A stretch of 42,482 nucleotides of DNA, taken from IMG/VR virus record IMGVR_UViG_3300022833_000022, positions 1 to 42,482 of that record. One strand, written 5' to 3'. The notes under the pieces were generated by a model that saw only the letters and a program-made list of their open reading frames with translations, made no database searches and was not told the DNA's origin. The stretch's first letter is position 1. Every line of letters begins with the position of its first letter. This document shows, piece by piece, positions 2,009 to 41,574 of this stretch. Both the position numbers and the translations under genes were made by a program. The stretch is from a virus.

Positions 2009-2029
2009 GTTATAATAAGAGAGAGAGAT

Positions 2030-2125
2030 ATGATATATTTAATAGCAACAGCCTTGGGTATATTTATCTGTCCGGTATTAACGTTAGGATGTGTATTAGT
2101 TCACAATGGTAGACATAACTCATAA
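2030..2125 (+). CDS. Small membrane peptide, 31 aa
   Basis: The ATG lies 21 nt after the early promoter element at 2000. The first about 23 residues (MIYLIATALGIFICPVLTLG) form one hydrophobic segment, followed by a short polar tail (HNGRHNS). It is probably a single-span inner-membrane peptide made early in infection. The stop is embedded in an intergenic module repeated after the genes ending at 5042 and 5527. No family is recognised, but promoter and module make it a credible gene. Confidence 0.5.
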   Translation: MIYLIATALGIFICPVLTLGCVLVHNGRHNS

Positions 2126-2170
2126 TGGTTCTGAATAAGATATTAAGTAGCCCTTCTGTAGAAAAGGGTA
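2119..2170 (+). repeat. Intergenic module, copy 1
   Basis: The core CTCATAATGGTTCTGAATAA runs across the stop codon of the 31-aa gene and is followed by TAAGTAGC. It matches modules at 5037 and 5534, both likewise between a stop codon and an early promoter. It ends in a weak hairpin, CCCTT pairing with AAGGG (2151-2168), without a T-run. Confidence 0.5.
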
Positions 2171-2191
2171 GTTAGATCGTTAGAGAGTTCG

Positions 2192-2200
2192 TATATTTAG
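2192..2200 (+). promoter_or_regulatory. Early host-type promoter TATATTTAG
   Basis: Identical to the promoter at 2000 from TTCG through TATAATAA; followed by AGAAATAAGAGTT and the ATG at 2224. No upstream TTTG is evident here. Confidence 0.65.
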
Positions 2201-2223
2201 GTTATAATAAAGAAATAAGAGTT

Positions 2224-2529
2224 ATGAGAAGTAAAATAGAAAGACCGATTAGAGATGAAGACAATGAGCACATGTCAGATGTAGTGTTCAATGCATATGT
2301 TAACCTAGTACAGGCAGGATGTCCAGTTAAGATATGGTGGCAAGTAAAGCCAGGGTATCAAGATTACAGAGGGTATTTTTGGATTGATACTGAGGAGCAA
2401 GGAGCCGGAATGTGGTTAGACTACAATGGTAAGTATGATGGCAGTGAGAGGTTAGCGACTATATTAAGTGATGCTGGCTTATATTTCGAGTGGGAGAACT
2501 CTGCAGTCGCAAGTGTATTTGATATTTAG
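2224..2529 (+). CDS. Hypothetical early protein, 101 aa
   Basis: A soluble acidic protein with many aromatic residues (KIWWQVKPGYQDYRGYFWID, about residues 38-57) suggesting a compact beta-rich fold. The ATG lies 23 nt after a strong early promoter. The next gene starts 3 nt after its stop, so the two form a small operon. No family is recognised; an early host-modifying role is a guess from position only. Confidence 0.65.
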   Translation: MRSKIERPIRDEDNEHMSDVVFNAYVNLVQAGCPVKIWWQVKPGYQDYRGYFWIDTEEQGAGMWLDYNGKYDGSERLATILSDAGLYFEWENSAVASVFDI

Positions 2530-2532
2530 GAT

Positions 2533-2793
2533 ATGATAGATATATTTGGACTATTCAGTTTGACTGAAGATGAGTTGTTTCGTAATCTGTTTCTTTTCTT
2601 CGCAGGAGCCGGGCAGTTGTGTGGTATGGTATTGGCTTATAAGAACTGGAATAATCCTGATATAGGGACTGAGGACATAGTAACGTATCTATTCGTATAC
2701 TGGGCTCTTGGTTTATTTGTTGGAGCAATTGCAATACCGGTTATAATTGTAGGACTCCCTATATGGCTTATAGATAAATTAAGGAGTAATTAA
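2533..2793 (+). CDS. Small integral membrane protein, 86 aa
   Basis: Two to three hydrophobic segments are visible (about residues 17-37, 48-60 and 60-80), joined by a polar loop containing NNPDIGTED. It lies immediately after the 101-aa gene in the same operon. It is a predicted inner-membrane protein expressed early; superinfection exclusion would fit the class, but nothing in the sequence proves that. Confidence 0.6.
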   Translation: MIDIFGLFSLTEDELFRNLFLFFAGAGQLCGMVLAYKNWNNPDIGTEDIVTYLFVYWALGLFVGAIAIPVIIVGLPIWLIDKLRSN

Positions 2794-2821
2794 AATGCTG
2801 GTCTATATGAGATATAGTTCG

Positions 2822-2830
2822 TATATTTAG
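2822..2830 (+). promoter_or_regulatory. Early host-type promoter TATATTTAG
   Basis: Same block as at 2192, including the leader AGAAATAAGAGTTATG; the start codon is at 2854. Confidence 0.65.
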
Positions 2831-2853
2831 GTTATAATAAAGAAATAAGAGTT

Positions 2854-2994
2854 ATGGGAAATTGGAAAGAAATGGGTTTTGAGAGTAAAGAACATTATAA
2901 TGAGTTTCTAAGAGAGAAAATGGAGAAGATGATGAATAGAATCAAAACAACTCCTAAGTTATTAAATGTTTTTAAGAGATTAAGAGATAAATAA
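2854..2994 (+). CDS. Small early protein, 46 aa
   Basis: A short basic, probably helical protein (begins MGNWKEMGFESKEHYNEF; contains EKMEKMMNR). The start is fixed by the leader, identical to that of the genes at 2224 and 3058. No motif is recognised. Size and charge fit a small phage protein that binds a host target or nucleic acid, but this is inference. Confidence 0.5.
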   Translation: MGNWKEMGFESKEHYNEFLREKMEKMMNRIKTTPKLLNVFKRLRDK

Positions 2995-3000
2995 TAATTA

Positions 3001-3017
3001 ATTTGGTTTAACCAAAT
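3001..3017. promoter_or_regulatory. 17-bp palindrome over the -33 element, candidate operator
   Basis: ATTTGGTT and AACCAAAT are perfect arms around a single T. The left arm contains the TTTG lying 20 bp before the promoter core at 3026, so a protein bound here would cover the -33 contact. No T-run follows, so a terminator is less likely. Confidence 0.4.
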
Positions 3018-3025
3018 AGCTTTCG

Positions 3026-3034
3026 TATATTTAG
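3026..3034 (+). promoter_or_regulatory. Early host-type promoter TATATTTAG
   Basis: TTTG (3002-3005), a 20-bp spacer and TATATTTAG, followed by the usual AATAAGAGTTATG leader with the start at 3058. This is the best -33/-7 pair in the early region. Confidence 0.65.
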
Positions 3035-3057
3035 ATTATAATAAAGAAATAAGAGTT

Positions 3058-3195
3058 ATGAATAGTAGAACAACACAATTAGAATTTCAATTAGAGTTAG
3101 ATCAATTAAGTTATGATGGTGATTTTTATGTTTCACATAAGGGATTGTCAATAAAGTATGATCATCATATAGAATTAGGTAAAGTAAATATGTAA
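3058..3195 (+). CDS. Small early protein, 45 aa
   Basis: A short acidic protein (begins MNSRTTQLEFQLELDQLSYD). The start is set by the promoter leader shared with 2224 and 2854. The larger opposite-strand frame covering this stretch was judged a shadow. No domain is recognised. It is the last gene before the AT-rich, CCGG-free island. Confidence 0.5.
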   Translation: MNSRTTQLEFQLELDQLSYDGDFYVSHKGLSIKYDHHIELGKVNM

Positions 3196-3208
3196 TGAAA
3201 GAAAAAAT

Positions 3209-3472
3209 ATGATAACAAAAGAATTTAAATTTAAAAACGGTGATGTAGTTACAGAGAAAGTAACTGGATTCAGTGGGACAATTACAGGTAGTGTATACTA
3301 TTTGACAGGATGTAGCCAATATTTAGTGACTGCAAAACAGAAAGATGAATTTACAGAAGCAGTAACTGTATGGTATGATGAAGGTCGCTTAGAATATTTA
3401 AGCACATCTATTACAGAAGACGATGTTAAAGCAGATGATAACGGATGTGATAAACAAGCTCCTAAAAAGTAA
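3209..3472 (+). CDS. Conserved phage-type small protein, 87 aa
   Basis: The pattern GDVVTEKVTGFSGTITG, then YYLTGCSQYLV, then WYDEGRLEYL resembles a small beta-barrel-like protein found in many phage genomes with no assigned function. The C-terminus is an acidic/polar tail (DDNGCDKQAPKK). It lies 13 nt after the 45-aa gene, probably on the same transcript. I recognise the pattern from memory; no function is claimed. Confidence 0.65.
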   Translation: MITKEFKFKNGDVVTEKVTGFSGTITGSVYYLTGCSQYLVTAKQKDEFTEAVTVWYDEGRLEYLSTSITEDDVKADDNGCDKQAPKK

Positions 3473-5042: not shown

Positions 5043-5080
5043 CGGTTCTAAATAATACTCTAGCTAGTTACTCTGGAAAA
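5037..5080 (+). repeat. Intergenic module, copy 2
   Basis: TTATAACGGTTCTAAATAAT spans the stop codon of the preceding gene and is followed by CTAGCTAGTTACTCTGG. It matches copy 1 (2119) and copy 3 (5534) in position and core sequence. Confidence 0.5.
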
Positions 5081-5087
5081 AAATACT

Positions 5088-5096
5088 TATCTTTAG
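5088..5096 (+). promoter_or_regulatory. Early host-type promoter TATCTTTAG, near-leaderless
   Basis: CTTATCTTTAGGT is followed directly by the ATG at 5099, only 2 nt after the core. If the core works like other Bacteroidota -7 elements, the RNA would begin at or next to the start codon, giving a leaderless message. Confidence 0.55.
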
Positions 5097-5098
5097 GT

Positions 5099-5580: not shown

Positions 5581-5612
5581 AAGTAACTGTAGGAAAGCCG
5601 GGAAGTAATCCT

Positions 5613-5621
5613 TATCTTTAG
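5613..5621 (+). promoter_or_regulatory. Early host-type promoter TATCTTTAG, near-leaderless
   Basis: Same CTTATCTTTAGGTATGATA arrangement as at 5088; the ATG at 5624 begins 2 nt after the core. Confidence 0.55.
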
Positions 5622-5623
5622 GT

Positions 5624-8892: not shown

Positions 8893-9189
8893 ATGGATAA
8901 TTTTAACTTAAGAGAGTACTTAACAGAAGGTAGACTCCTAAAAGAGGTTATTAGTGTTAATGACCGAGATGTAAACCCTAGAAAATTAATAAAAGCACTT
9001 AGACAAGGTTATTTATTTGAACTGACCGATGGAGAAGATGACTTTGAAATTAATTGGTCCCCACTAGGGAAGTATTACATGGTGATGGTAAATGCTGAGA
9101 TAACATGGAGAGGTACTAAAGCATCTGAGATGCTAATGCAATTACCGCATTTAAGTACCTTAACTGTGTCTTTTAGAGTTAAATCGTAA
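8893..9189 (+). CDS. Tagged small protein, 98 aa
   Basis: Begins MDNFNLREYLTEGRLLKE, the clearest version of the shared tag, with two L-x-E sites (LTE and LKE) of the kind cut by gp21-type prohead proteases in T4. The rest (about 19-98) is a compact alpha/beta domain ending in VSFRVKS. The coding DNA for the tag (8911-8947) is repeated at 9298-9334 with one mismatch. The A-rich leader has no Shine-Dalgarno sequence. Confidence 0.6.
   Translation: MDNFNLREYLTEGRLLKEVISVNDRDVNPRKLIKALRQGYLFELTDGEDDFEINWSPLGKYYMVMVNAEITWRGTKASEMLMQLPHLSTLTVSFRVKS
8911..8947 (+). repeat. 37-nt tag-coding repeat, copy 1
   Basis: Encodes REYLTEGRLLKE and flanking bases; 36 of 37 positions match 9298-9334. Confidence 0.9.
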
Positions 9190-9201: not shown

Positions 9202-9576
9202 ATGGATAATTTCAATATAAAGCAATACCTTAAAGAGAGTACAAGCTTTACACCAAACTCCGGAACAATGAGCGGCGGGGTTACTAACCTAGATAAAAGA
9301 GAGTACTTAACAGAAGGTAGACTTCTAAAAGAGGCCGATAGTGAACACTTAGAAGCTTTTGCAGAAGAGAATGACCTAAATATAGAGAGTTTAAAAGCGG
9401 AGTGGGAAGGTTCAAAAGATAATTACGACTCTATCGAAGATTATGTAGCAGAGTTAAGTGATAATATCGAAGATACAAGAAGTTTTCACGGAGATGAGCT
9501 TAATGAAGTGTCAAATGTAGATCCTGATACAGTAGAAGATAGGAAGTACAGGTTGGAGGAGTTCATGGAAACATGA
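9202..9576 (+). CDS. Protein with two stacked N-terminal tags, 124 aa
   Basis: The first tag is MDNFNIKQYLKES; after a Ser/Gly/Thr-rich linker a second tag follows (KREYLTEGRLLKE, about 33-45), encoded by the 37-nt repeat. The remainder is acidic and helical. The stop is a TGA (9574-9576), and the same frame stays open from there through the next gene to 10020, so a single 272-residue protein may have been interrupted. Tag stacking suggests fusion of two tagged genes. Confidence 0.55.
   Translation: MDNFNIKQYLKESTSFTPNSGTMSGGVTNLDKREYLTEGRLLKEADSEHLEAFAEENDLNIESLKAEWEGSKDNYDSIEDYVAELSDNIEDTRSFHGDELNEVSNVDPDTVEDRKYRLEEFMET
9298..9334 (+). repeat. 37-nt tag-coding repeat, copy 2
   Basis: Second copy of 8911-8947, here internal to a gene that already has its own N-terminal tag. 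Confidence 0.9.
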
Positions 9577-10023: not shown

Positions 10024-10410
10024 ATGAATTTTAACATGGCAGAATACCTTAGAAAAGGAGGTATAAACAAAAACACTAAGTCACTATTAAAAGAAGATAA
10101 AGCTCCAGGATTCGTAGATAGAAACCAAGGAGAAGCTTTACCTACATACGAAAGTGTTAAAGCAGCTTATGAAGCAAAAAATAAAGTCAAAGAAGAGTAT
10201 AACTCTGGAACTGAGGAATATGATGATGATGCAGACTACGATACCGGCGGATATGTTGAAGCAATGGGTCGAGACTTAGACGAGCATGTTAATGCGATAG
10301 TTAGTCTATTTAAAGAATGGAAAGCCGGTCCGATGACAGAACCAGGCATGGAAGGATATGCTAAGGATGATTTAATTAGCCATATTCAAAGAAAAATACG
10401 AAACGCTTAA
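10024..10410 (+). CDS. Tagged acidic protein, 128 aa
   Basis: Begins MNFNMAEYLRKGG, a shorter form of the shared tag, followed by SLLKEDKAPGF with an L-x-E site at about residue 23. The rest is charged and probably helical (ESVKAAYEAKNKVKEEY) with an acidic patch (EEYDDDADYD) and a C-terminal DLISHIQRKIRNA helix. It closes the run of tagged genes. Packaging in the head is inferred from the tag. Confidence 0.55.
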   Translation: MNFNMAEYLRKGGINKNTKSLLKEDKAPGFVDRNQGEALPTYESVKAAYEAKNKVKEEYNSGTEEYDDDADYDTGGYVEAMGRDLDEHVNAIVSLFKEWKAGPMTEPGMEGYAKDDLISHIQRKIRNA

Positions 10411-30937: not shown

Positions 30938-31906
30938 ATGACAACATTAACAAGTCTCCTTCGAGAAATCCTAACCGAAGGAGGTAATGTCTTCGGGACA
31001 ACTGCACCAATAGAGAAAGATAAGATTGAACCTACACTAGAAAAGTTTGTTGAAGAGTTAGGAAGGGTATTTCCCAACAAAACCTCTGCTTTTAAAACCT
31101 TCGAGAAAATAGGTTCTGCAGGTAAGAAAGATATGTCGGGAGATATAGATGTAGCTTTCCCTGTAGCTCATATGACCTTAGACGGAAAGCCGGATTTAAA
31201 AAGCTGGGGATTAGATGAAGAGAAGTTTACCGAATACTACGATAGGATAAGAAAGAGAGCTAAAACGGCTACAGAATCCCAATCGCAATTAAGAGCAATG
31301 CTTACGTTAGTTGCTGAGAAGATTAACGAGAAGAGTAAAATACTCCAAGCAGATCCTAAATCTGCAGGAGCTAACTCTTTATTCTTAGCATTCCCACAAT
31401 ACGGAGTAGACGGTAAGAGACAATCAGAACTAATACAGGTAGATATTAATATTGGAGACCCAGAATGGTTAAGATTTAGTTACTACTCAAACATATACAA
31501 AGGAGTAGTTAAAGGACTACATAGAACTCAATTAATGCTAGCACTATTTACCGCTAAAGGTAAGATGTTTAAACATGAAAAAGGAGTTTTAGATAAAGAA
31601 ACTAGAGAAGTAGAAGCTAGCACACCAAAAGAAGCTTTGAATCTAATTAATACTTTATATAACACCGAACTAAGTCAAGACCAGTTAAACGACTACTTTG
31701 AATTATCAGATGTCCTAGAAACACAATTAACAAAAGAAGATTACGGAAAAGTAATGGACATCTACATAAAGATATTAGACAATACAGGACCTACAGCACA
31801 TATCCCAGAGAACTTAGAAAATTATTGGATAGCAAACCAAGAGAGGTTAGGTTTAAAAGGTAAAAGACTACCGGAAGATTCACCACTTAAGAAATACGCA
31901 GTATAA
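30938..31906 (+). CDS. Nucleotidyltransferase-fold protein with tag-like N-terminus, 322 aa
   Basis: KIGSAGKKDMSGDIDVAFP (about 53-71) is the GS then DxD signature of pol-beta-type nucleotidyltransferases, and a third acidic site may lie in LIQVDINIGDP. The N-terminus MTTLTSLLREILTEGG matches the x-E-Y/I-L-T-E-G form of the tagged proteins at 8893 and 9202, so this enzyme may be packaged in the head. It is coupled to the next gene by TAATG and led by a late promoter. The acceptor substrate is unknown. Confidence 0.65.
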   Translation: MTTLTSLLREILTEGGNVFGTTAPIEKDKIEPTLEKFVEELGRVFPNKTSAFKTFEKIGSAGKKDMSGDIDVAFPVAHMTLDGKPDLKSWGLDEEKFTEYYDRIRKRAKTATESQSQLRAMLTLVAEKINEKSKILQADPKSAGANSLFLAFPQYGVDGKRQSELIQVDINIGDPEWLRFSYYSNIYKGVVKGLHRTQLMLALFTAKGKMFKHEKGVLDKETREVEASTPKEALNLINTLYNTELSQDQLNDYFELSDVLETQLTKEDYGKVMDIYIKILDNTGPTAHIPENLENYWIANQERLGLKGKRLPEDSPLKKYAV

Positions 31907-34900
31907 TGTCAGGAGCAGCAGGAGGTAGTAGGATAACAAGAACCGCAGTAAAACAAACGGTTGAAGACTATACTGAAAATATACTTTCCAAGATAGAAGG
32001 CTTTAAAGATGCAAAACTATCCGGCTCTATAAATAGACCGGAAAAAGATGACTTCGGAGATATAGATATTATAGTAACTATAGAAACAGAAGACGATAAA
32101 AGAGTAGTTAAAAAAGCAATAGTAGAACTATTCGCTAGCCTCTCTGACGATGAACTACCTCCTCTACGGAACCCCAAGTACAACGGTAAAAAATCTATAA
32201 ACCACGGAGAAATGGTCACAGTACTGTACCCTATATCTGACATGCCTGGAGAATTTGTACAGATAGATAATATTATAGCACTCTCTTCCGACGAAGGAGC
32301 TTTTAAGAAGACTATACTTGACTACCCCGCTGAACTTCAAGGAATAATACTAGGACTAGTTAAAACCCCCCTACTAGAGGAAAGACCGGAAGAAGTCTTT
32401 GCTCGAATGGGTATTAAAGACATACCAGAATTAGGAGAAAATAAAGAGTACGAATTTCATATAGATACTTCAGGACTTACCCTCCGTCTAGTAACATACG
32501 GAGCTAACTATAAAATTCTCGATAGTAATACTGTATGGCAATCAAAAAGCTTTACAGACGTTAAGACTCTACTAAAGGATTTTGACTTAGATGGAAGTTT
32601 TAATGCATTCATCGAACAAGTTAAGAGGTTAAAGAACGAACGCTCTAAAAATAGAGTAAAAGGGTTCTTTAAAAGATCTATAAAAGTAGGAGCAGCAGAA
32701 CAAGGAACGTCTAAAGGAGACGTAAAACAAAGAGCCTTAGATACAGTAGCACAGATACAAGAGAGTAGAGCACTTCATACAAGAGCTAGGTTAACAACAA
32801 AATACTTAGACGAAGACAGTAAGAGTAGAATCGCTGTATTCCCTGGAGCTTTCAAACCTCCTCATAAAGATCATATTGCAAGAATTAAAGCAGCTTCTGA
32901 AAAAGTCGGTGACGATGGAAAGGTTCTAGTTATTATATCCCCTAAACCGAGAACAAAAGACGGGCAAGAGACAATAGATGCTAATCAAACAGTTGCAGTA
33001 TTTGATCTCTATAAGAGTAAAGGAACATTACCTAATAATGTAATATTTAAAATATCAGATACAAACTCACCGGTAGGAGCAGCATACGCAGAATTTGAAA
33101 GCGACAGTACACAACCTTATATCGCTGTATTCGGAAAAGATGATAAAGCTAGGTTTAGCAGTATAGAAGATAACCTCCCGAACGTAGTAATAGATAGTTT
33201 TGAAGAAGCAGGAGTAGGTAATACATCAGCAACAGACTTAAGAATCGCAATCGCTAATAGAGATAAAGAAGAACTTGTAAAACTAATAGCACCAGGCGTT
33301 ACAGCAGAAGAGTACTTAGATGCATTAGGTATAGAAGAGGTAGAAGAAATAGAAGAGGAAATAGAGGAAGAGGTAGAAGAGGAAAGGGATGAGGTATTAG
33401 AAGAGGAAATACTAGAAGAAGAAGAGGATGAAGACAGAGATACAAACCCCTGGGATAAACATGCTACTATGCTCAATAAGATGCAAAAAAGACCTGAGCT
33501 CCTTAAAGGATTATGGAAAAGTATTTCAAAAGCCTCTAGAAAAGCTTTAGTCTTATATTTTAGAGAGAAGAAACAACAAGAAACCGCTGCACCGGTTGAA
33601 TCTATTAAAGAGCAGAGTAATACAAAGAATAACGTATTAAACGAGAACAGTACCTACTCTAAAGACATAGATTATAAGTTAAAGATTAGAGAGTTAACAG
33701 AACACATGTTGGAAAAAGGTATGAATATTAAACCTCTACCTAAAGTTACTTTTAAACATAGTAATAGCGCTAATGCTCGACTATTTAACGGTAAAACAGC
33801 CTACTATGAACCAGCAACAAGCACAATAGTACTCTACACAGAAGGAAGACATCCTAAAGATATTGTAAGATCATTCGCACATGAGATGATGCACCATATA
33901 CAAAACCTAGAAGGTAGGTTAGGCAGTATTAACACCACGAACACTAAAGAGTCAGAACACTTAAATGATCTTGAAAAAGAAGCTAACTTAAATGGAACAA
34001 TGACTTTCAGAAACTGGACTGATTCAGTAACTGAAAACTTAACTACCAAGATAGATACTTTCCTAACTGAGAACAATATAAAACTACCACCAGACCAGGA
34101 AGTAGTACTTCAAGCAGGTACTGAAGACCATGAAAGAGGTTTAATTGTAAAATGGAGAAGTGATGGAGGGTATGACGTAGCTTATTGGTATGGTACACCA
34201 GACAATATAGTATCAGCTGAACTAGTAGGAGACGGTGAATCTTTCGGAGACATTAAACATGTATGGTTAGGATATCATCCAGAATTAGATAGCGAAGAGA
34301 AAGTATATGAAGAAAGTTCAGGAGTAGACGGAGAAGTAGTTTGTAGAGGGTGTGGATGGATATGGGACTTAGAAAACGGAGGAGAAGATCCCTACCTTTG
34401 TCACAAGTGCGGTTACGACAACTCTCCGAACATAGGTGAACAACATAAGACAAGAGACCCGTTTGGATTAAATCAATACGCTAGAGAATTAGCTGCTGAC
34501 CTGGAAGAATCCCTAGATCAAGACGAAACTACTGCTAGTAAAAAAAAAGAACTAAAAGAAGGAGTATTTGATACTATCACCAATAAAGTATCCTCTGACG
34601 TATTCAACAGTTGGAAGCAACAGTTTGACGAAGATAATAACGTAGGTAAGATATCTTTTAATGAAGAGTATGACCTCGTAGATAGTAAGGGTAGACAATT
34701 AGAATTCTACCTCGAAGCAGAATTAGAACTTAACCAAACAGAAGAGAGAGTATATAGCGCAGACGGAGGAGCCGATGCTGGAGACGAAGAAGAGTTCGAC
34801 AGTAAAGGTACTATGAAAGACCCAGGACTCGCAGGAGATATAAATCTCAACTTCACAATAGACCCTCGAGACCTTCCAAAAGCATGGACTACCCTTTCAA

Positions 34901-35232
34901 TGGACCTGAAAGACATCGTTAGACACGAGATAGAGCACTTAACACAGTCCGGATATAATATAATACCTAGTAAAAGTTTACCGGACGACCAAGAAATAAG
35001 AGACCGTATACTAATATACAAAACACTACCTGAAAGAGAGTATTATACCCTAGATAAAGAAATACCAGCAATGCTACAAGGGATGTACTTTAAAGCAAAG
35101 AAATTAAAGAAATCCTTTAAAGATGTAGTAAAGGTTTACTTAGATAGTAGAAAGGTTTCTCAAGAAGATCAAGAAAAAATAATTAAACGTTGGAAGCCTG
35201 CAGCAAAAAAGCTAAATTTACCAAACTTATAA
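31906..35232 (+). CDS. Multidomain protein: nucleotidyltransferase, cytidylyltransferase-like, two zincin motifs, 1108 aa
   Basis: Visible modules in order: GS (40-41) with FGDIDI (50-55), a second pol-beta-type nucleotidyltransferase; about 306-460, an NMNAT/cytidylyltransferase-like domain with FPGAFKPPHKDH (HxxH 320-323) and TSATDLR (440-446); an acidic run (about 470-512); a zinc-protease motif HEMMH (659-663); a rubredoxin-like ribbon with CRGC (813-816) and CHKC (832-835); an L-K-E-G site (883-886); and a second HEIEH motif (1007-1011). Function of the whole is unknown; a processed virion polyprotein is one explanation. Confidence 0.7.
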   Translation: MSGAAGGSRITRTAVKQTVEDYTENILSKIEGFKDAKLSGSINRPEKDDFGDIDIIVTIETEDDKRVVKKAIVELFASLSDDELPPLRNPKYNGKKSINHGEMVTVLYPISDMPGEFVQIDNIIALSSDEGAFKKTILDYPAELQGIILGLVKTPLLEERPEEVFARMGIKDIPELGENKEYEFHIDTSGLTLRLVTYGANYKILDSNTVWQSKSFTDVKTLLKDFDLDGSFNAFIEQVKRLKNERSKNRVKGFFKRSIKVGAAEQGTSKGDVKQRALDTVAQIQESRALHTRARLTTKYLDEDSKSRIAVFPGAFKPPHKDHIARIKAASEKVGDDGKVLVIISPKPRTKDGQETIDANQTVAVFDLYKSKGTLPNNVIFKISDTNSPVGAAYAEFESDSTQPYIAVFGKDDKARFSSIEDNLPNVVIDSFEEAGVGNTSATDLRIAIANRDKEELVKLIAPGVTAEEYLDALGIEEVEEIEEEIEEEVEEERDEVLEEEILEEEEDEDRDTNPWDKHATMLNKMQKRPELLKGLWKSISKASRKALVLYFREKKQQETAAPVESIKEQSNTKNNVLNENSTYSKDIDYKLKIRELTEHMLEKGMNIKPLPKVTFKHSNSANARLFNGKTAYYEPATSTIVLYTEGRHPKDIVRSFAHEMMHHIQNLEGRLGSINTTNTKESEHLNDLEKEANLNGTMTFRNWTDSVTENLTTKIDTFLTENNIKLPPDQEVVLQAGTEDHERGLIVKWRSDGGYDVAYWYGTPDNIVSAELVGDGESFGDIKHVWLGYHPELDSEEKVYEESSGVDGEVVCRGCGWIWDLENGGEDPYLCHKCGYDNSPNIGEQHKTRDPFGLNQYARELAADLEESLDQDETTASKKKELKEGVFDTITNKVSSDVFNSWKQQFDEDNNVGKISFNEEYDLVDSKGRQLEFYLEAELELNQTEERVYSADGGADAGDEEEFDSKGTMKDPGLAGDINLNFTIDPRDLPKAWTTLSMDLKDIVRHEIEHLTQSGYNIIPSKSLPDDQEIRDRILIYKTLPEREYYTLDKEIPAMLQGMYFKAKKLKKSFKDVVKVYLDSRKVSQEDQEKIIKRWKPAAKKLNLPNL

Positions 35233-35872: not shown

Positions 35873-35898
35873 AAGTTGCCGTCTAAGTAATAAATTCT

Positions 35899-35907
35899 TA
35901 TCTTTAG
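35899..35907 (+). promoter_or_regulatory. Host-type promoter TATCTTTAG
   Basis: TTCTTATCTTTAGGTTATAA is an early-class promoter with the ATG 11 nt downstream at 35919, inside the late region. Confidence 0.55.
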
Positions 35908-35918
35908 GTTATAATAAT

Positions 35919-38589: not shown

Positions 38590-41574
38590 ATGAGTCAAGA
38601 ACTAAAACAAGTAATAAGACAGGAATACGTAAAATGTGCTAAAGACCCAGTACATTTCATGAAAAAGTACTGCTATATACAACACCCTCAAAGAGGTAGA
38701 ATACTATTTCACTTATTTCCCTTCCAAGAAACTACATTAAACCACTTCCAAGATAATGACTACTCTATAATACTAAAGTCAAGACAGCTCGGAATATCAA
38801 CTCTAGCAGCAGGGTTTTCACTATGGTTAATGACTTTTCATAAAGATAAGAATATACTTACATTAGCAACAACACAAGCTACTGCTAGAAACCTTGTAAC
38901 TAAAGTACAGTTTATGTACGAGAATCTACCTACCTGGTTACGAGTAGGGTCCGCAGAGAAGAATAAGTTAAGTTTAAGACTAGTTAACGGATCTAAGATA
39001 ACAGCTAAATCCTCTAACGCAGACGCCGCTAGATCGGAAGCAGTATCGTTACTGATAATTGACGAGGCAGCATTTATAGATAATATAGCTGAAACATGGG
39101 CGTCTGCTCAACAGACACTTGCAACAGGTGGAGGAGCTATAGTATTGTCATGTGTAGTAGGAGATACTTATGTAACTACCTCTGAAGGCATTAAGCAGGT
39201 AAAGGATTTTATAACGGAGAAGCAAGAACCCGGCTTTAATACAGTTAAACCTTACCACATACTAGGAAAAGGTAAAATTAGAGAAGGGCATCAATTCTAC
39301 CGAAACGGCACTGTCCCCACCTTGAAGATACATTCTAAAAATGCACAACTAGAAGGTTCAGAAAACCATAAACTATACACCTTCTCCGGTAATACCTACG
39401 GGTGGAATAAACTAGAGACCCTGAAGGTAGGAGACTTTGTAGCAGTGCAGGGGGGGCACCGTATTTGGGGAAATAACGATACTCTAAACTACCAAAATAT
39501 TGCTAAGAATAGAAAAAAATTAAACTTCAACACAGAGGAAATCACCCCGGACCTTAGTTACCTTTTCGGCCTCTACCTAGCAGAGGGCAGTTCTAACGGA
39601 ACAACTACAATAGACATCACCTGCGGGGATGATCAAGATATAGATAGAGAACTTAATAAGTTAGACCTATATTACAGCAGAACCGATGGGAGATTGGCTA
39701 AAAGGCTCTGTTCTACCTCTTTAGTGGATATTTTTAATAAAGTAGGTTTTGAACTAGGCGAACATACAGCGCTAACTAAGTTCCTTCCTAAGAAGATACT
39801 TTCGATGTCGGAGAAGAATATAGCTGCCGTGGTTCAAGGAATGTTTGACGGGGACGGGTGTGCTACTGTAAAAGGATTAGTGACTTATGCAAGTATCTCT
39901 AAAGACCTAGTGGAGGGTTTACGTAGCATACTCTTAAACTTCGGAGTATATAGTAGAGTCTATGTGAGGACAGCACTGCATAGTAACGCATATGTCGCTT
40001 CAAAACGAGAGCAGGGTTGTGAATGGGCCTTCGAATGGAATAAACATAAACACGACTGTTATATTTTAGAGATAACCGGTGAAGGTTTAGAGATTTTTCA
40101 TAAGCACATTGGATTCCGCATAGACAGGAAGCAATTAAATTTAAAGACATCAGTACATAACTATAAAAAACAAACTAGGAAATCCACCTTAGACTTAATA
40201 CCGGCAGGAGATAACCTCATAAAATTGCTATATGACCGCTCAGAACTCTCACAGTACAGTTTTATAAAGGAATCTGAGAAGTCACTTAGCAACATCTTAA
40301 ATAGAACTAGGAGTAGGAAAACTATTCATTGTTCAAGGGCAACCGTAAAGGTCGTTTTTAGTAAATGGAAACATTTATTAAACGAGGAGGAGCTAACTCA
40401 CTGGGACAATATACTAGATGATAGAATACGGTGGAACATTATTAAGGAGATCACAGAAGGGGTTTCTGAGACGTATGACTTTTCTCTACCGGATAACATT
40501 AAAACAGAAGGGGAATGGTGTCATTCTGTAATATACAACGGTATGGTAGGACACCAAACCCCTTTCGGTACAGGTAATTGGTTCCATAAGACCTGGTGTG
40601 CAGCGGAGACAGGAGAAAATGCATTCTTACCTATCAAGTTACCGTGGTTCGTACACCCGGAAAGAGACCAAACCTGGAGAGATTCACAAGATGCTCAATT
40701 AGGAGATCCAAGGTTAGCAGCACAGGAGTGTGATGTTACATTCTCTACCTCTGGAGATACGGTAATATACGGCGACCTTATAGAATTTTATGAAGAGACC
40801 TATAGAAAAGATCCTGTAGAGAGAAGAGGGGTGGATAGAAACCTGTGGATATGGGAACCTGTAGACTATTCCAGAAACTACATGGTAGTAGCAGACGTAG
40901 CTCGAGGAGACGGAAAGGATTTCTCCGCTTTTCATATAATAGATATAGAAACGTGTAGCCAGGTTGGAGAATACAAAGGACAACTCCCCCCTAAAGAGTT
41001 TGCCCACCTATTAGTCGGAATATCGACAGAGTATAACAACGCACTGTTAGTAGTAGAGAATGCAAACATAGGATGGTCTACTATCGAAACAGTACAAGAA
41101 CGAGGTTATACTAATCTATACCATTCTCCAAAGTCTGGTAATGTTACCTCAGAAAGTTACTTCGACCCCCACGGGCTAAATACTAATATGACCCCAGGCT
41201 TTTCCAACACGTTAAAGACAAGGCCTCTTATAATAGCAAAACTACAAGAATCTATTAATGACAAGTCAGCGATAATACATTCAAAGAGAATGCTTGATGA
41301 ACTAAAAGTCTTTATATGGAGAAACAATAGAGCAGAAGCTCAAGGAGGTTATAACGATGATTTAACAATGTCTTGGGCAATAGCGATGTATGTAAGAGAA
41401 TCAGCCTTTAGAATACAGACTGGAAACGCTAACATCGTAAGAAGTGTATGGGAGAACATTACTACCACTAATAATAACCCAGACATAATCTATACTCCTC
41501 AAAGCGCCAACAACCCTACACAGATAGACAACGGTAAAGGAGGGTTCGAAGACATGTCTTGGATCTATAAATGA
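38590..41574 (+). CDS. 17: Terminase large subunit (gp17 type) with intein, 994 aa precursor
   Basis: Extein 1 (1-187) has a Walker A-like SRQLGIST (64-71) and Walker B LLIIDE (154-159); extein 2 (657-994) has nuclease acidic sites in VVADVARGDGKDFSAFHIID, LLVVENANIGW and NDDLTMSWAIAM. Removing residues 188-656 restores AIVLS joined to TPFGTGNWFHK, the ATPase coupling motif (S/T-T-P), and leaves 525 residues, close to the family's length. It drives DNA into the prohead and cuts the concatemer. It precedes the portal gene. Confidence 0.9.
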   Translation: MSQELKQVIRQEYVKCAKDPVHFMKKYCYIQHPQRGRILFHLFPFQETTLNHFQDNDYSIILKSRQLGISTLAAGFSLWLMTFHKDKNILTLATTQATARNLVTKVQFMYENLPTWLRVGSAEKNKLSLRLVNGSKITAKSSNADAARSEAVSLLIIDEAAFIDNIAETWASAQQTLATGGGAIVLSCVVGDTYVTTSEGIKQVKDFITEKQEPGFNTVKPYHILGKGKIREGHQFYRNGTVPTLKIHSKNAQLEGSENHKLYTFSGNTYGWNKLETLKVGDFVAVQGGHRIWGNNDTLNYQNIAKNRKKLNFNTEEITPDLSYLFGLYLAEGSSNGTTTIDITCGDDQDIDRELNKLDLYYSRTDGRLAKRLCSTSLVDIFNKVGFELGEHTALTKFLPKKILSMSEKNIAAVVQGMFDGDGCATVKGLVTYASISKDLVEGLRSILLNFGVYSRVYVRTALHSNAYVASKREQGCEWAFEWNKHKHDCYILEITGEGLEIFHKHIGFRIDRKQLNLKTSVHNYKKQTRKSTLDLIPAGDNLIKLLYDRSELSQYSFIKESEKSLSNILNRTRSRKTIHCSRATVKVVFSKWKHLLNEEELTHWDNILDDRIRWNIIKEITEGVSETYDFSLPDNIKTEGEWCHSVIYNGMVGHQTPFGTGNWFHKTWCAAETGENAFLPIKLPWFVHPERDQTWRDSQDAQLGDPRLAAQECDVTFSTSGDTVIYGDLIEFYEETYRKDPVERRGVDRNLWIWEPVDYSRNYMVVADVARGDGKDFSAFHIIDIETCSQVGEYKGQLPPKEFAHLLVGISTEYNNALLVVENANIGWSTIETVQERGYTNLYHSPKSGNVTSESYFDPHGLNTNMTPGFSNTLKTRPLIIAKLQESINDKSAIIHSKRMLDELKVFIWRNNRAEAQGGYNDDLTMSWAIAMYVRESAFRIQTGNANIVRSVWENITTTNNNPDIIYTPQSANNPTQIDNGKGGFEDMSWIYK
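39151..40557 (+). mobile_element. Intein with LAGLIDADG homing endonuclease in terminase
   Basis: Residues 188-656 (469 aa). The N-terminal splice block begins Cys188 (CVVGDTYVTTSEGI); a His in GSENHKL fits block B; LFGLYLAEG (325-333) and VVQGMFDGDG (414-423) are the paired LAGLIDADG motifs; the C-terminus reads VIYNGMVGHQ before Thr657. The last residue is Gln rather than the usual Asn, a known minority form. The DNA uses more GGG, CTC and AGG codons than the exteins, suggesting recent arrival. Confidence 0.9.

Follow-up and report, generated by a model that had tools for sequence, protein, structure and literature searches.

Enzyme modules of an 1108-residue protein from a T4-like phage are separated by prohead-protease-type tripeptides and may form a head-packed cargo precursor

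The DNA analyzed here is IMG/VR virus record IMGVR_UViG_3300022833_000022, and the window is the whole of this stretch of 42,482 bases. Its gene content is T4-like, with baseplate genes, a primase, an exonuclease, and the terminase large subunit. An intact open reading frame (ORF) at positions 31906 to 35232 encodes a protein of 1108 residues in which several enzyme-like modules follow one another. A complete ORF for the same protein, 100% identical, is found in a second uncultivated virus genome record (L001; labels of this form denote loci). We propose, with a probability of roughly 0.78, that this protein is a cargo precursor that would be packed into the head, cut into separate enzymes by the prohead protease, and then injected. 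The features of the ORF are listed below, where the arrow marks a predicted cut, aa denotes residues of the protein, and pLDDT is the predicted local distance difference test score of the AlphaFold model.

31906-35232, + strand: 1108-residue precursor polyprotein ORF, intact reading frame
31906-32763, + strand: module 1, pol-beta-type nucleotidyltransferase (NTase; aa 1-286), MSGAAGG start, no leader, running to site IQE↓S; GDID motif, Foldseek, pLDDT ~85
32755-32814, + strand: junction holding two candidate sites, IQE↓SRA (aa 286) and LDE↓DSK (aa 303), with a leader-like helix between them
32815-33327, + strand: module 2, NMNAT/cytidylyltransferase-like domain (aa 304-474); profile and Pfam matches
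33331-33438, + strand: acidic linker (aa 476-511) in which nine candidate [LIVM]xE sites overlap; sequence and low pLDDT
33439-33612, + strand: helical segment with site IKE↓Q at its end (aa 512-569); model and site scan
33637-33645, + strand: candidate site LNE↓NSTYS (aa 578-580), ahead of module 3
33646-34035, + strand: module 3 (Zin1; aa 581-710), metallopeptidase-like domain with its HEMMH at 33880-33894; invariant residues, weak Pfam matches
34027-34071, + strand: two candidate sites, VTE↓N at aa 710 followed by LTE↓N at aa 722; site scan
34072-34311, + strand: module 4 (M6), ~80 residues, uncharacterised (aa 723-802); placed differently in L051, L095, and L128
34303-34311, + strand: candidate site VYE↓ESSG (aa 800-802)
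34312-34440, + strand: module 5 (ZnR; aa 803-845), zinc ribbon of the form CxxCGWxW...CHKCG; invariant cysteines
34552-34560, + strand: candidate site LKE↓GVFD (aa 883-885)
34561-35229, + strand: module 6 (Zin2), HEIEH domain (aa 886-1108), HEIEH at 34924-34938 (aa 1007-1011); family motif and model

Module 1 contains the motif GSx9DID, and GDID is invariant across 32 homologues. A Foldseek search with the full-length AlphaFold model gave DNA polymerase lambda/beta as the best solved matches (E ~3e-6, probability 1.00), and the module thus has both the GS...DxD motif and the fold of the pol-beta superfamily. All 50 matches listed in this search were pol-beta, and it is hence uninformative on the remaining domains. 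A PDB sequence search with the NTase profile gave one marginal match to an unrelated protein, which was discarded.

Module 2 contains the motifs FKPPHKDH...SATDLR. The NMNAT-like profile matches solved NMNAT, NadD, NadR, and PPAT chains with E-values down to 3e-7, and CTP_transf_like of Pfam is matched by 31 of 36 NMNAT-like members. The HxxH and SxT(D)xR motifs, together with profile matches to known members, place the module in the NMNAT/nucleotidylyltransferase superfamily. If injected, an NMNAT-like enzyme may plausibly have a role in NAD or nucleotide metabolism of the host, given what is established for the superfamily. The model falls below a pLDDT of 50 at aa 287-296 and aa 480-513.

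In the HEMMH family of module 3 (aa 659-663 here) the H, E, and H are invariant, as are R-H-P-K-D and later glutamates. The Pfam matches of the family are weak: Peptidase_M91 (best E 0.0027), DUF6782 (best E 0.0015, below the cutoff for the domain in the window), and MPTase-PolyVal (best E 0.017, below the Pfam cutoff). PDB sequence searches with the HEMMH and HEIEH profiles gave no credible match. Pfam matches such as Fe_hyd_lg_C and TFIIF_beta_N were discarded as chance-level. The zinc ribbon of module 5 has two CxxC knuckles, and its C, C, and CHKC are invariant in the family.

The HEIEH domain of module 6 was modeled with a pLDDT of 95.3 and a predicted template modeling score of 0.89. The H, E, and H are again invariant. 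In the model, HE.EH lies in a helix (112-132), and the invariant E170 starts a later helix, as expected of an HExxH helix with a downstream glutamate. A Foldseek search of this model against the PDB gave no match below E 0.1, the matches to metallopeptidases being weak and non-significant; the label of zincin is therefore not yet justified by fold. Against viral models, the search returned three uncharacterised phage proteins. The domain occurs at at least 541 places in viral contigs. Since it is confidently modeled and has no close relative among solved structures, it may represent a new enzyme fold.

An earlier note on this DNA, made from the letters alone, had described a fusion of 1108 residues with a pol-beta-type nucleotidyltransferase, an NMNAT/cytidylyltransferase-like domain with HxxH and S-A-T-D-L-R motifs, two HExxH zincins, a rubredoxin-like zinc ribbon, and acidic and L-x-E-containing linkers. 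The intact frame, the motifs, and the structural and profile matches agree with this description, as do the acidic linker at aa 476-511 and the LKE at 883-885. For the rubredoxin-like label, the agreement is at the level of the CxxC pairs. The zincins need qualification: both HExxH motifs are invariant, while a zincin is weakly supported for HEMMH and HEIEH has no significant match to a solved zincin.

The protein was compared with 55 relatives and with 80 further loci of the HEIEH module, drawn from the 541 or more. The tripeptide [LIVM]xE was found in the boundary window at the start of 79 of 79 NMNAT modules (a window of 13 residues), 35 of 35 zinc ribbons (30 of them at a single fixed position), 70 of 70 HEIEH domains, and 69 of 78 distinct HEMMH domains. 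Windows of the same length elsewhere in the linkers would give 31, 12, 26, and 35, respectively, and windows anywhere in the protein 14, 6, 14, and 18; the presence expected by chance at a module start is 18-45%. In a separate count, the tripeptide stands directly before G-x-[YF]-D at 73 of 73 distinct HEIEH starts, with six kinds of left context (none included) and 12 identities of the middle residue. By sequence conservation, LKE (883-885) is the best-conserved predicted cut site.

The tripeptide is also avoided within the modules. For [LI]xE the ratio of observed to expected counts falls to 0.52 within modules and reaches 1.39 in the linkers; for [VM]xE the two ratios are 0.42 and 1.61. The control patterns [LI]E, [LI]xxE, Ex[LI], [LI]xK, [LI]xQ, and FxE have no such split, and that of [LI]xD is weak. 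When the four large module families were taken separately, the in-module ratios were 0.50, 0.49, 0.58, and 0.28. The junctions near aa 286, 570-588, and 841-886 coincide with low-confidence linkers of the AlphaFold model.

Across the relatives the modules are shuffled, duplicated, lost, or standing alone. Among complete ORFs the five tracked modules occur in 18 arrangements, including NMNAT-first, HEIEH before HEMMH, tandem NMNATs, the ribbon on either side of HEMMH, and a lone HEIEH domain. Extra cassettes in polyprotein ORFs include a Zeta-toxin-like kinase (L068), NTP_transf_2, and, as weak matches, NT5C-like phosphatases and a RegB-like domain. The L051 ORF also encodes an entire superoxide dismutase of the Fe/Mn type (Pfam E 1.8e-29), with a plastocyanin-like domain (3e-14) nearby. 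The polyproteins of L050 (4080-6896) and L051 (3071-6832) have 97-99% identity along the length common to both; what sets them apart is a single in-frame cassette of 315 residues, which comprises the superoxide dismutase and an M6 module.

Other relatives show further variation. An open-ended ORF of 1762 residues (L030:4840-10128) contains one more nucleotidyltransferase and, as HELTH, a third segment of the HExxH type; it also has DUF5661 and matches a RegB-like domain weakly. The NTase gene of L043 is split into two ORFs (1366-1923 and 2025-3461), which may reflect a frameshift, a sequencing error, or a true separation. Modules in L119:6264-7238 and L128:5997-7412 with LYHVTSPQRYKQIM... and IYYRGALDS... 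segments resemble ADP-ribosyltransferases by eye; no Pfam match was found for them.

The T4 prohead protease gp21 cleaves after L/I-x-E (PMC9026906), and the polyproteins have the same kind of tripeptide at their module junctions, with V or M also at P3. A gp21-type Peptidase_S77 is above cutoff in each of nine large relatives tested. The gp23 propeptides of the same nine have [LIV]xE at conserved positions, the expected mature start included (e.g. QLVTE↓A), and so match the broader [LIVM] preference of the polyproteins. Modules encoded as single genes carry leaders of 8-14 residues that end in the tripeptide, as in the kinase (MISLMQLLKE↓VQG), the phosphatase (MGNLADLLLE↓ESD), and the HEIEH domain (MIKLIDILKE↓GAYD). 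The leaders of more distant kinases are alike (Pelagibacter phage HTVC008M, MIPFILKE↓G; Methylophilales phage Melnitz, MKTFAELQE↓G).

NMNAT-like proteins were seen by mass spectrometry in virions of the cyanophages S-SCSM1 and S-CREM2 (PMC9602691, PMC10665884); both papers concede possible carry-over in the virion preparations. These proteins begin with MKSFLQFLKE↓A (S-SCSM1) and MKNFSSFLTE↓A (S-CREM2).

The gene directly upstream of the polyprotein ORF provides a leader at the locus itself. Its two features are the following.

30938-31906, + strand: coupled upstream gene, second NTase-like protein, with a 14-residue leader, MTTLTSLLREILTE↓GGNVF; leader retained in most relatives
30938-30979, + strand: capsid-targeting-like propeptide (leader) of this gene; comparison with leaderless homologues

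The last base of the upstream ORF (31906) is the first base of the polyprotein ORF, and the coupling to a tagged nucleotidyltransferase described earlier is thereby confirmed. Homologues of the type of Flavobacterium phage immuto start with MGGNVF, and a stop codon stands in the place of the leader; the leader is therefore separable exactly at the predicted cut. Three small genes in the window (8893-9189, 9202-9576, and 10024-10410) have similar leader-like N-termini (DNFNLREYLTEGRLLKE and alike), as in immuto gp076, gp077, and gp092, and probably encode further head proteins.

We infer the following pathway for the 1108-residue protein. The precursor would enter the prohead core alongside other leader-bearing proteins. 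While maturing gp23, a gp21-type prohead protease, acting in trans, would also cleave the linkers of the precursor behind [LIVM]-x-E. The expected products are the NTase, the NMNAT-like enzyme, the HEMMH metallopeptidase-like protein, the small M6 module, the zinc-ribbon peptide, and the HEIEH protein, and the acidic linker would be cut to small pieces. The released proteins would remain in the head with the DNA and, once injected, would target the host as infection begins. We propose that the cleavage tripeptide is the sole requirement shared by the modules, which could therefore be gained, lost, and reordered as cassettes. The suggestion of the earlier note that this may be a virion polyprotein delivering enzymes into the cell is supported by the sites at module starts, the in-module depletion, the leaders, the protease and major capsid protein sites of the relatives, and the cyanophage NMNAT-like proteins, with packaging, cleavage, and delivery as the predicted steps.

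Several points weigh against this proposal. The window stops short of the phage's own capsid cluster, protease, and gp23 genes, and the virion mass spectrometry comes from cyanophages rather than from the clade of the polyprotein. The tripeptide is short, and the homologues counted are not independent. Its observed-to-expected ratio in single control genes runs from 0.4 to 1.8, and any pattern varies widely; the depletion argument therefore rests on the agreement of four module families and not on one. Nine HEMMH starts have no site (six of them behind a ribbon), and tripeptides also occur within folded modules (aa 74, 158, 175, and 1043). The 1108-residue protein has no N-terminal capsid-targeting leader ahead of the NTase, and such leaders are present in NMNAT-first relatives and single-module genes. 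The NTase might therefore stay outside the head.

The last point leads to a variant of the proposed pathway in which the head cargo would be only the part from the first site onward, with the NTase serving as a carrier or working inside the infected cell. This variant is compatible with the main proposal. All homologues of the NTase module begin at M1 and lack a leader, and the neighboring NTase-like gene has one; every MSGAAGG-type protein nevertheless has the NTase joined in frame to the cargo that follows it, and we regard this variant as unlikely. It is improbable that the chain is an uncleaved polyvalent protein, packaged or used in the cell intact, with LxE-rich linkers as flexible spacers. 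Such a role would be compatible with the low-confidence linkers and has a parallel in known polyvalent proteins, such as the N4 virion RNA polymerase, that travel uncut (PMC5512222), but it fails to predict the exact tripeptide at non-homologous starts, the depletion within modules, or the leaders of single genes that end in the same tripeptide.

The modules might also be freed by autoproteolysis, with the HExxH domains as the processing enzymes, as was proposed for the zincins of polyvalent proteins (PMC5512222). Nearly all polyproteins found have at least one HExxH domain, and HEMMH has its weak matches to MPTase-PolyVal. The sites nevertheless fit the specificity of gp21 and the propeptide sites in the major capsid proteins of the clade, single-gene kinases and phosphatases without an HExxH domain have the same site, and no peptidase is matched significantly by the HEIEH domain, so that this explanation is given a very small chance. 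Slimmer still is the prospect that [LIVM]xE serves mainly as a docking or targeting motif that recruits each module to the scaffold core, cutting being incidental. The leaders do resemble the T4 capsid-targeting sequences of ~10 residues (PMC9026906), and leader-like helices are kept before fused NMNAT modules. At ribbon-HEIEH junctions, however, the tripeptide is kept alone, with no leader helix, and avoidance within modules is easier to reconcile with cutting than with docking.

The predicted precursor was compared with known systems. The T4 internal head proteins (IPI-III and Alt) and gp21 have parallels here in the short leader ending in L/I-x-E, which is carried by NMNAT-first relatives and single-module genes, in the predicted packaging in the head with the DNA, in the predicted early delivery of enzymes (as for Alt), and in the gp21-type protease, which is present in the relatives. 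In T4 each cargo protein has its own gene and its own single leader, whereas here the sites lie between enzymes of one chain and V or M is also found at the first position. In phiKZ and SPN3US a gp21-related protease matures ejected head proteins after a short motif ending in E; there, long propeptides are removed from single proteins, and no multi-enzyme cassette precursor is involved (PMC5694885). S-SCSM1 gp91 and S-CREM2 gp154, from T4-like cyanophages, are the NMNAT-like proteins detected in virions; each has a 10-residue leader ending in FLxE and is encoded by a separate gene, unfused to NTase, HExxH, or ribbon modules.

Like the polyvalent proteins described by Iyer et al. in 2017 (PMC5512222), the 1108-residue protein has multiple disparate enzymatic domains in one polypeptide, among them zincin-like and pol-beta NTase domains, and the two share module shuffling and a proposed injection with the DNA. 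Unlike in those proteins, no hallmark of the ArdC-N or DdrB type was recognized, the modules are delimited by the prohead-protease tripeptide, and the setting is T4-like. Of the polyvalent signature domains sought in the 1108-residue protein, MPTase-PolyVal was below cutoff and no other matched. The general idea of processing has a precedent, since an assemblin-like protease at the C-terminus of a polyvalent protein led to the inference of processing during virion assembly (PMC5512222). A trans-cleaved, site-delimited cargo polyprotein of tailed phages was not found in the literature searched, an absence that is not proof. What appears to be new is this trans-cleaved cassette arrangement delimited by prohead-protease sites, and the sequence evidence points to the capsid protease rather than to zincin processing. 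The proposed strategy is reminiscent of RNA-virus polyproteins, in which one precursor is split into enzymes.

The closest counterpart in order is gp088 of phage immuto, which has NTase-NMNAT-HEMMH-HEIEH with [LIVM]xE junctions and ~40% identity over 73% of the query. The claim that no described phage protein has this order therefore needs softening; gp088 (907 residues) has neither ribbon nor M6 and is annotated only as "NMNAT, NadR". The host group of the phage is probably the flavobacteria, because the nearest annotated relative infects Flavobacterium and the only match in a scan of genome contigs was a single locus on a contig of a Winogradskyella metagenome-assembled genome.

The window contains two kinds of gene-start motif. 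The earlier note had placed the ORF under a late promoter; this was not confirmed. The forward T4 late promoter TATAAATA was not found upstream of 30938, where the reverse complement TATTTATA is present. In all, the + strand has ten copies of TATTTATA, which is the T4 late promoter core in reverse complement, a total not above chance. The placement ahead of start codons is striking: eight copies (12943, 15478, 18143, 22874, 26110, 30926, 35245, and 36899) end 4-23 bases before a start codon. A second motif, TATNTTTAGGT, stands ahead of other genes (~2180-2200, 5080-5098, 5605-5623, and 35890-35918) and in sequence resembles the Bacteroidota -7 element. The ORF of the terminase large subunit (38590-41574, 994 residues) contains a LAGLIDADG_3 domain at aa 411-508 that splits it into two halves and is a probable intein.

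If the proposal is correct, it predicts exact cleavage sites and fragments and would explain how a single targeting event lets some phages load a variety of enzymes into a virion. It would link the T4 internal proteins with the polyvalent proteins, which so far were described separately, and injected effectors of uncultured phages could be found by cutting predicted proteins at [LIVM]-x-E. We lean toward a broader view, which we hold to be somewhat more probable than not: among T4-like phages that infect Bacteroidota and related hosts, many would make an interchangeable enzyme arsenal as one chain, pack it in one step, and release it by the capsid-maturation protease, with the tripeptide as the junction for cassette exchange. 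This would be a tailed-phage counterpart of a strategy of the Gag-Pol type, and the arsenal would comprise NTases and NMNAT-like enzymes, kinases of the Zeta-toxin-like and phosphatases of the NT5C-like kind, metallopeptidase-like domains, and even superoxide dismutase and a plastocyanin-like domain.

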